Part shown: piece after piece, positions 12,230-49,164 of the stretch
Position numbering within the stretch: position 1 is the first letter of the stretch
Layout: each line of letters starts with the position of its first letter
Assembly: GCA_016188045.1 (NCBI GenBank)
Contig: JACPIM010000002.1
Span: 169,514 to 233,513 of the forward strand
Reading direction: 5' to 3'
DNA from: Candidatus Woesearchaeota archaeon
GTDB taxonomy: Archaea; Nanobdellota; Nanobdellia; SCGC-AAA011-G17; JACPIM01
Length of the DNA stretch: 64,000 bases
The notes under the pieces: generated by a model
Database searches by the model: none
Told to the model about the DNA's origin: nothing
Seen by the model: the letters and a program-made list of their open reading frames with translations, nothing else
Made by a program: the position numbers and the translations under genes

Positions 12230-13873
12230 TTACCTATGCCCAAAAACAAAAACCATTTTATTTTTAGTTTTTTTATCAAGTTTCATAAATCCAATTCTTT
12301 CAGCTTGTATAATTTCATTTAATTTAACTTTCTTCAAATCATGTTCACCATAGCCTTTAACAACAGAATTATCTTCCATTACAACTTCAACATTAATTAA
12401 ATCTTTAGATACCGGCAACCAATGTATTAATTTAGCATTTAACTTATTATCATGTTCATAACTAGTAACTTCTCCATTCTTAAAATTAAACAAGTGCATA
12501 AATCTGTAGTTTTCTCCAAATTTAATCTCATCTTGAACATAAAATTCTTCTTTTACGTTTATTTTTCTGCTCCCTCTTTTTAAAAAGTCAGGATGTAACG
12601 GTATTTTGGCAGTTTTAATTTTGTTCCCCCCTATCATAATTTTTTTAGGATTTAAAATTAAAAAATACCGATTTGTCTTTTTATCAATTATCTTTTTGTT
12701 ATAAGAAGCCAAATTATCCATTGATATGTTCACATCAGATCTGTCTATTCCAATGTCCCTTATGAAATTAATAATAGCTTCTGCCTTAAAACCTCTCCTT
12801 CTTAAGGACATTATTGTTCCTAACCTAACATCATCCCACCCAGTTAATTTTCCTTCTTTAATTAATTCTTTAGCTTCACTGGTGCTTTTTATCCCACCGA
12901 CAAAAAACTTTCCATTATAAATAGTTTCAGGATATTTCCATCCAAAATAATCAAAAATATATTTCTGCCTCTGATCAGAAACTTTCAAATCAACTCCTCT
13001 TAAAATATGAGTTACTTCTAGTTCATGATCATCAATAGCAGAAGCAAAATTCAGTAAAGGCCAGACTTTGGCTTTAACTAAAGGATGTTTTCCTTTTTCA
13101 ATAATCCTGAAAGCAATCCAGTCTCTTACAGCGGGATTGGGATGATCTATATCTGTTTTTATTCTTAAAACAGCCTCACCTTCTTTATATTTGGTAAACA
13201 TCTTCTTCCATTTTTTCATTACTTCATTAGGCTGCTCTTCTCTCTCATCAGAAATTTCGCTTTTCCAGATTTTTTGTCTCATTTCTTCCTGTTTTATTGT
13301 ATCAATATAAGCATATCCTTTTTTTATTAATTCTTCAGCATATTTATAATAAATTTTTAATCTCTTGCTCTGAATAACAACTTTGTTAGGCTTAACTCCT
13401 AGCCAGTCTAAATCTCTTTTTATCCAAGAATAAGCTTCTTTCATAGGAACTTTTATTTTAGGATCAGTGTCATCAAATCTTAAAATATACTTTCCATTAT
13501 ATTTTTTAACTAAAAACCAGTTCCACAATCCAGGCCTGCAATGCCCAAAGCTTAAAGGGCCATTTGGATTAGGTGCAAATCTCATCACAACTTTTCCTTT
13601 TTTGGCATTTTCTAAATCAGGTGTTTTTCTTTCCTGGGTTGATAAGGGTTTACCCTTATCTTTAATGCCACCAAATTTTTTTATTTCATCCCCCTGTTCT
13701 TTAATACTTAATTTATTAACTTCATCAATTACCTTATTGGCTAGTTTTATTACCTCATTTTTATCCTTAACTTTTAAGCTGGAAAAGATTTTTCCTAAAA
13801 CCGCGTTTAAATTGGCTTTTCCATTATATTTTATGGCATTTTCTAAAGCAAATTTCCTGATTTCTTCTTTCAT
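12230..13873 (-). CDS. gltX: Glutamyl-tRNA synthetase (archaeal type)
   Basis: VVMRFAPNPNGPLSFGHCRPGLWNWFLVKKYNGKYILRFDDTDPK; archaeal GluRS beta-barrel C-terminal domain. Confidence 0.95.
   Translation of the reverse strand: MKEEIRKFALENAIKYNGKANLNAVLGKIFSSLKVKDKNEVIKLANKVIDEVNKLSIKEQGDEIKKFGGIKDKGKPLSTQERKTPDLENAKKGKVVMRFAPNPNGPLSFGHCRPGLWNWFLVKKYNGKYILRFDDTDPKIKVPMKEAYSWIKRDLDWLGVKPNKVVIQSKRLKIYYKYAEELIKKGYAYIDTIKQEEMRQKIWKSEISDEREEQPNEVMKKWKKMFTKYKEGEAVLRIKTDIDHPNPAVRDWIAFRIIEKGKHPLVKAKVWPLLNFASAIDDHELEVTHILRGVDLKVSDQRQKYIFDYFGWKYPETIYNGKFFVGGIKSTSEAKELIKEGKLTGWDDVRLGTIMSLRRRGFKAEAIINFIRDIGIDRSDVNISMDNLASYNKKIIDKKTNRYFLILNPKKIMIGGNKIKTAKIPLHPDFLKRGSRKINVKEEFYVQDEIKFGENYRFMHLFNFKNGEVTSYEHDNKLNAKLIHWLPVSKDLINVEVVMEDNSVVKGYGEHDLKKVKLNEIIQAERIGFMKLDKKTKNKMVFVFGHR
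13636..13660 (+). repeat. Dispersed palindromic element copy A (inside gltX)
   Basis: gggttgataagggtttacccttatc; GATAAGGGT/ACCCTTATC inverted repeat; matches 29260..29284 with one mismatch over 24 nt. Confidence 0.6.
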
Positions 13874-29259: not shown

Positions 29260-29284
29260 GGGTTGATAAGGATTTACCCTTATA
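29260..29284 (+). repeat. Dispersed palindromic element copy B (5' leader of 29314 gene)
   Basis: gggttgataaggatttacccttata. Confidence 0.6.
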
Positions 29285-42777: not shown

Positions 42778-42908
42778 GGGCCTGTAGCTCAGCTTGGAAA
42801 TAAGGATTGCATCCTTATCAACCTGCAAACTTATTAAGCAAATAGAGCACCAGCCTTCTAATTCAGGAGGCAAGCTGGGGGTCGTCGGTTCAAATCCGAT
42901 CGGGCCCG
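42778..42908 (+). tRNA. tRNA-Arg(TCT) with two introns (D-loop 42798..42841; anticodon loop 42861..42872)
   Basis: Acceptor GGGCCTG/CGGGCCC, D-stem GCTC/GAGC, anticodon stem CCAGC/GCTGG with loop CTTCTA-A, T-arm GTCGG-TTCAAAT-CCGAT; both introns form bulge-helix-bulge. Confidence 0.9.
42798..42826 (-). repeat. Dispersed palindromic element copy C (within tRNA D-loop intron)
   Basis: Minus strand GCAGGTTGATAAGGATGCAATCCTTATTT; compare GGGTTGATAAGGATTTACCCTTAT at 29260. Confidence 0.45.
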
Positions 42909-46013: not shown

Positions 46014-46087
46014 AGGATAGTAGTCTAGCTTGGTAAGATTCACACCCAAGTACATGCAAATCCAGGTTCAAATCTTAGCAACCCAAG
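46014..46087 (+). other. Degenerate tRNA-like sequence
   Basis: GGATAGTAGTCTAGCTTGGTAAGATTCACACCCAAGTACATGCAAATCCAGGTTCAAATCTTAGCAACCCA: D-arm and T-loop resemblance, but acceptor and anticodon stems do not pair. Confidence 0.35.
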
Positions 46088-49018: not shown

Positions 49019-49153
49019 GCGTCGGTGCCCAAGCGGTTAAGGGGACCGATATATAAAAATAGTCCAACCTGCAGCCTTTGGGTAGTTAGCGGTTATTCAT
49101 TAAGCAAAGAATTAATGAACCATAAATTCCCAGGTTCGAATCCTGGCCGACGC
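49019..49153 (+). tRNA. Intron-containing tRNA, isotype unresolved (D-arm of class II Ser/Leu style)
   Basis: Acceptor GCGTCGG/CCGACGC, D-arm CCCAAGCGGTTAAGGG, T-arm CCAGG-TTCGAAT-CCTGG all intact; about 86 nt between G26 and the T-stem. Confidence 0.75.
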
Positions 49154-49164
49154 TTTACTTTAAA

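Follow-up and report, generated by a model that had tools for sequence, protein, structure and literature searches.

A dispersed palindromic repeat within a predicted D-loop intron of a woesearchaeal tRNA-Arg(UCU) gene

Structure of the interrupted gene

The window analyzed here is a 64,000-nt stretch of DNA from the source genome (G000), and all coordinates are positions in this window unless a contig is named. Positions 42778-42908 of the plus strand hold a tRNA-Arg(UCU) gene with two introns. Exon 1 (42778-42797) comprises the 5' strand of the acceptor stem, U8, A9, the 5' strand of the D-stem and the D-loop up to G19. The first intron, which is of the BHB type and 44 nt long, follows in the D-loop between G19 and A20 (42798-42841). 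Exon 2 (42842-42860) supplies the remainder of the D arm, position 26, the 5' strand of the anticodon stem and the loop with anticodon TCT and A37. The second intron, ATTCAGGAGGCA, spans 12 nt (42861-42872) at the canonical position 37/38 and is followed by exon 3 (42873-42908), which carries A38, the 3' strand of the anticodon stem, the variable loop, the T arm, the 3' strand of the acceptor stem and G73. Removal of both introns yields a 75-nt mature tRNA in which the stems of 7, 4, 5 and 5 bp are paired and the consensus bases are present.

Both splice sites consist of a complete 4-bp central helix and 3-nt bulges. At the D-loop site, the exon strand GCTT (42792-42795) pairs with the intron strand AAGC (42836-42839), the bulges are GG|A and AA|A, and an inner helix is formed by AATAAG (42799-42804) and CTTATT (42830-42835). 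The edges of this intron may shift by one A with no change to the mature tRNA, and the BHB favors the placement at 42798-42841. At the anticodon site, CTTC pairs with GAGG and the bulges are TA|A and CA|A. The D-loop intron contains the core of a palindromic repeat, ATAAGGATTGCATCCTTATCAAC (42800-42822, plus strand), recognized by pattern matches and stem covariation, in which an 8-bp hairpin (ATAAGG...CCTTAT) is followed by CAACC, the first four bases of which form a CAAC tag.

The intron positions are recovered by an independent scan in which each tRNA arm may be interrupted at any point by a single intron of 8-130 nt and the arm left after its removal is scored. Applied to 300 bases around the gene, the scan gives GCTCAGCTTGGATAGAGC as the best D arm, with 44 nt removed, and CCAGCCTTCTAAGCTGG as the best anticodon arm, with 12 nt removed; these are exactly the two proposed insertions, and the score of the assembled tRNA is in line with those of well-formed tRNAs in G000. 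Of mononucleotide shuffles of the D-loop intron, a fraction of 5e-5 form a 4/4 central helix with at least six inner pairs, and a fraction of 1.5e-4 reach the same total score. For the anticodon intron, 0.7% of shuffles reach an equal total score and 6% form a 4/4 central helix by itself; its BHB alone is therefore the weaker evidence, but the 37/38 position and the restored arm support the intron. Under unconstrained minimum free energy (MFE) folding, the precursor does not adopt the BHB fold, although a structure that contains the central helices of both BHBs is only ~2 kcal/mol less stable than the minimum. MFE folding was dropped as a weak criterion because the same program misfolds the mature tRNA as well.

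The initial annotation had warned that a gene of this kind is easily missed, and standard tools bear this out: neither ARAGORN nor Rfam at its curated gathering threshold reports any tRNA in the whole window. At relaxed thresholds Rfam matches only the 3' part of the tRNA-Arg(UCU) gene. A minus-strand match to Rfam HPnc0260, below the gathering score and antisense to the 3' half of the tRNA, was taken as spurious. The neighboring IMPDH protein was also searched against the genome contigs to find relatives and gave no matches.

Orthologs and the sister tRNA-Arg(CCT) gene

The predicted 75-nt mature tRNA served as the query in a search of 61 genomes from the same order. Among the loci fetched, 17 contain a complete 75-nt tRNA-Arg(TCT) that has no intron and needs no gaps in the alignment; in three of these, a single stem position is unpaired. 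The best intron-free ortholog (G043; L033/L163) is identical at 68 of 75 positions, and its first 30 nt match without a difference across the D-loop insertion point. The tRNA-Arg(TCT) of G001, a member of the same family, has an intact D-loop and, as read by eye, a different intron of ~18 nt in the 5' strand of the anticodon stem (L162), from which it follows that the introns of this tRNA turn over between genera.

The sister gene for tRNA-Arg(CCT) in G000 (contig C9, ~113.9-114.1 kb, L101) contains three introns, of which one is the same D-loop intron, one measures 12 nt and lies at 37/38, and one interrupts the T-loop at 59/60. In the central helix of the D-loop BHB, the sister gene has ACTT/AAGT in place of the GCTT/AAGC of tRNA-Arg(UCU), a two-sided compensatory change between exon and intron. 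The two introns proposed in the initial annotation therefore stand: the pairings of each are present and each is recovered by the independent scan, to which are added the compensatory change for the 44-nt intron and the canonical position for the 12-nt intron. The identity and anticodon proposed there are likewise confirmed, by the bases found in the window, all of which lie where they had been placed, and by the intron-free orthologs.

That annotation had also named, as a circumstance that would count against it, a second intact tRNA-Arg(UCU) gene with this copy silent. No other intact tRNA-Arg(UCU) gene was met in searches of the G000 assembly, which is 92.6% complete. AGA accounts for 376 of 525 arginine codons in the long ORFs of the window and is the main arginine codon, so the gene should be needed and its loss is unlikely. 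The explanation that best fits the whole, and one that is considered probable on the strength of these sequence comparisons, is that this is a working gene for tRNA-Arg(UCU) with a transcript that would be spliced at two BHB introns.

Interrupted tRNA genes across the genome and family

The G000 assembly (1.02 Mb, 24 contigs) returns only 14 tRNA matches at an E-value of 0.001 or better. The same search gives 17 and 12 matches in two members of the family and 18 to 41 in the other 22 relatives. About 22 different tRNAs are resolved in the fetched G000 loci, and only two of them (Trp and Ala-GGC) are predicted to lack an insertion; low-scoring solutions of the intron finder, the details of which are unreliable (L017, L021, L023, L112, L119 and L141), are left out of the intron counts. 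Predicted introns in the other resolved tRNAs lie at 37/38, near 25-26, in the D-loop, at 53/54 and in the T-loop at 59/60. Some of these other introns have 3/4 central helices. Those at 37/38 are often 12-16 nt long, and such introns occur in several other G000 tRNAs and are ordinary in the family; the initial annotation had called the short second intron unusual, a description that does not hold here. The unusual feature is the dispersed repeat inside the D-loop intron, which had gone unnoticed.

Several further loci were observed in the course of this survey. Another interrupted tRNA gene is probably present in the window at ~49020-49155 (plus strand; Rfam match 49090-49149), with GCGTCGGTGCCCAAGCGG at its 5' side and CCTGGCCGACGCT at its 3' side. 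A weak tRNA-like match of 13.9 bits downstream of purA (46014-46086, plus strand) has a poorly paired T arm and is possibly a tRNA remnant. Contig C24 of G000 carries the same heavily interrupted tRNA gene twice (L020, ~14.9 kb; L021, ~3.5 kb), and a palindromic repeat (L118) abuts one of the two copies.

Distribution of the palindromic repeat

In G000, the pattern ATAAGN{3,22}CTTATCAAC is matched 28 times and the reversed control not at all. Elsewhere it is found 5 times in G001, 10 times in G002, 10 times in G023, 6 times in G035 and 0-2 times in other relatives. One of the 28 matches in G000 (L117) has no real hairpin. The inner stem of the repeat shows 14 two-sided changes with 99.2% of cells paired, compared with 38-51% in controls with a slid partner. 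Only this inner stem counts as independent evidence, because the search pattern itself fixes five outer pairs and the CAAC tag.

Within tRNA genes, the repeat core recurs in the T-loop intron of tRNA-Arg(CCT), and a variant form is found in the T-loop introns of tRNA-Ser(TGA) and tRNA-Lys(TTT). Outside tRNA genes, copies lie in the RNase P RNA gene, in ORFs, at gene ends and in spacers. One copy in the window, ATAAGGGTAAACCCTTATCAAC (13638-13659, minus strand), is in frame in an ORF (12230-13873, minus strand) that encodes glutamyl-tRNA synthetase (GluRS), as identified by a match to 3aii; it encodes KDKGKPLSTQ in the N-terminal part of the protein. Another window copy, ATAAGGGTAAATCCTTATCAAC (29262-29283, minus strand), is intergenic. 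Copies inside ORFs are found at L095 (two copies), L105 and L114, with L095 and L114 as two ORFs other than that of GluRS. The copy in RNase P RNA is located on the minus strand of G000 contig C14, within a match to the archaeal form of this RNA (L116:1182-1592; RF00373, 110 bits). There, the repeat comes right after a GAGGAAAGTCC segment and is followed by a second CTTATCAAC motif.

Other aspects of repeat organization were observed as well. In G000 repeat clusters such as L110, L115 and L119, a second CTTATCAAC-like motif often follows within ~15-30 nt after the hairpin, and the tRNA introns keep this layout of hairpin and second motif. It is possible that the unit has three parts and that its 5' ATAAG can pair with either CTTATCAAC-like copy. 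In G023 and G035, which belong to another family, the repeats lie in spacers, some of them abutting tRNA genes. Copies directly 5' of tRNA genes and in the opposite orientation are seen at L104 (G000), at L153, L154 and L157 (G023) and at L159 (G035), an arrangement that may reflect either a target preference or a role in 5' end processing.

One intron body at two tRNA positions

A segment of 38 nt, AAATAAGGATTGCATCCTTATCAACCTGCAAACTTATT, is identical between the D-loop intron in the window and a T-loop intron (L141) in G002, a genome of a different genus. An exact match to a 23-nt repeat pattern identifies G002 as Candidatus Woesearchaeota archaeon NC_groundwater_568 (JACPNF01), which places the family in the Woesearchaeota. 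The G002 tRNA that contains the shared intron was read by eye as Ser-GCT. Directly after the shared 38 nt, the D-loop intron continues with AAGCAA and the T-loop intron with TGAAAG. AAGC pairs with the D-loop exon strand GCTT and TGAA pairs with the T-loop exon strand TTCA, and other T-loop introns carry CGAA where the exon reads TTCG. The intron body is therefore common to the two sites, and the 3' end that forms the BHB is fitted to each site. Since the repeat consensus does not include the 4-6 nt that complete each BHB, a ready-made intron is not accounted for by insertion alone. It is possible that the end is fitted by selection after insertion or by a copying step at insertion.

The splicing endonuclease

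A profile search identifies one PF01974 protein each in G000, G001 and G002. The G000 protein is ~175 aa long and matches the endA family, and the Y, H and K of the usual catalytic motifs are visible in its sequence. A stretch of 152 residues aligns without gaps to the M. jannaschii enzyme (1a79). No second endonuclease subunit, extra domain or lineage-specific loop was found in G000 (92.6% complete), G001 or G002; a very divergent subunit, or one encoded in the missing ~7% of G000, is possible. Reviews link diversified introns to endonucleases that possess a further subunit or an extra loop (PMC12397907, PMC4033280), and the broad-specificity enzymes are (alpha-beta)2 with CSL or epsilon2 with ASL (PMC12397907). 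With their complete 4-bp helices and 3-nt bulges, the two introns in the window need not require a relaxed enzyme.

Discussion

The proposed sequence of events begins with a short palindromic repeat that would move at the DNA level and has become dispersed over the genomes of the family. The D-loop intron of tRNA-Arg(UCU) consists largely of this repeat, the insertion of which would have created the intron rather than entered an existing one. Copies in tRNA genes would persist as introns because the bases immediately downstream of the repeat are complementary to the four exon bases that precede the insertion site, which allows a BHB to form. The splicing endonuclease would then cut both introns of the transcript at the two bulges, and the exons would be joined by an ordinary archaeal tRNA ligase, assumed to be of the RtcB type. 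In its broader form, in which a mobile repeat seeded or spread tRNA introns that are removed by an alpha-type splicing endonuclease, this account is judged probable from the sequences compared. The narrower form is put forward tentatively: that a selfish mobile palindrome creates tRNA introns in D- and T-loops, with a 3' edge that complements the local exon, and that a simple alpha-type endonuclease removes them.

The order of events assumed in the narrower form is the point at which the palindrome could instead be a passenger, inserted into a D-loop intron that already existed. D-loop introns free of the palindrome occur in G002 tRNAs (L161, L144) and mark the D-loop as a recurrent intron site in the family; as palindrome-free D-loop or stem introns are present in both G002 and G001, the repeat may have entered older introns. 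However, the tRNA-Arg(UCU) intron and the related T-loop introns are almost wholly derived from the repeat, with little of an older intron left, and the passenger role is regarded as somewhat unlikely.

How the repeat would move is a separate matter, and a REP-type element mobilized by a Y1 (IS200/RAYT) transposase would be compatible with the favored explanation. Read on the other strand, the repeat presents GTTG and then the hairpin, which is the architecture of a tetranucleotide plus hairpin, and single PF01797 genes are present in three genomes that carry the repeat (G002, G023 and G035). PF01797 is absent, however, from G001 and from G000, which has the most copies, and the fetched flanks of the Y1 genes in G002, G023 and G035 contain no repeat; no transposase for the repeat was identified by the PF01797 search. 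Mobilization of this type is considered unlikely. The elements resemble bacterial REPs and REPINs with RAYT (PMC2817692, PMC3733652) in being palindromes of 20-40 nt with a conserved tetranucleotide tag that occur singly or in clusters. They differ in that G000 has no Y1 gene, in that copies number in the tens rather than the hundreds, and in that copies lie inside tRNA and other genes.

A further alternative is that the intron moved from tRNA to tRNA as an intron, and that the copies found outside tRNA genes escaped later or are pieces of introns that were reverse-integrated. There is precedent for such movement in the Thermoproteales, where a 2010 study described introns of closely similar sequence that occupy various positions in various tRNAs (summarized in PMC4033280 and PMC4090602) and where the mechanism of transposition is unknown (PMC4090602). 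The near-identical introns at the same D-loop position of tRNA-Arg(UCU) and tRNA-Arg(CCT), and the introns that different tRNAs of G000 and G002 share between the D-loop and the T-loop, would fit this course of events. Against it, the copies outside tRNA genes share with the introns only the palindrome and a few following bases, are more diverse in sequence subfamily (GAAAC/GTTTC, GAACC/GGTTC) than the introns, and lie in spacers of another family (G023, G035). Unlike the Thermoproteales case, the shared sequence here is also present in RNase P RNA, coding genes and spacers, which points to a DNA repeat and not to a lineage of introns only. Transposition of the intron as such is held to be unlikely. 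That the tRNA-Arg(UCU) gene is a pseudogene broken by the repeat is very improbable: copies in RNase P RNA and coding genes do show that the element lands in functional genes, but here the consensus positions and stems are all intact once the introns are removed, the sister gene preserves the BHB pairing through a compensatory change, searches of the 92.6%-complete assembly met no other gene for this tRNA, AGA is the dominant arginine codon, and most resolved tRNA genes of G000 are interrupted likewise.

Outside the archaea, Rickettsia palindromic elements are small palindromes that occur in frame in protein genes and in RNA genes; they are likened to the present repeat by description, with the difference that the tRNA copies here appear to be spliced out. 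Among archaea, BHB introns at non-canonical tRNA positions are known from the Thermoproteales, ARMAN and Nanoarchaeum (PMC4090602, PMC4033280), and the positions already listed include 20/21 and 59/60 (PMC4090602). The gene in the window resembles these in having two introns in one tRNA, one of them at 37/38, and in its 4-bp helices with two 3-nt bulges. It differs in belonging to a woesearchaeal family, in a D-loop intron that holds a repeat also present outside tRNA genes, and in that only a short alpha-type endonuclease was found. No paper on BHB tRNA introns in Woesearchaeota, or on a dispersed palindromic repeat as a tRNA intron, was found in the literature searched, which was thin in subscription journals. 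Non-canonical, multiple and transposing tRNA introns are known in archaea; the repeat as the body of a tRNA intron appears to be the new part.

These results bear on annotation as well as on biology. With no tRNA reported in the window by standard tools and only 14 over threshold in the genome, the tRNA sets of genomes of this kind will look falsely incomplete. In this DPANN family, introns interrupt the majority of the resolved tRNA genes and frequently lie at non-canonical positions, and only a short alpha-type endonuclease was found; the combination of such an enzyme with many introns sits uneasily with the view that an added loop accompanies intron diversification (PMC12397907). The repeat suggests a route by which new archaeal tRNA introns arise. 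Since the same repeat is found free in the genome and as an intron body, at two positions and in two genera, with only the BHB-forming end altered, intron gain by a dispersed DNA repeat becomes directly testable.
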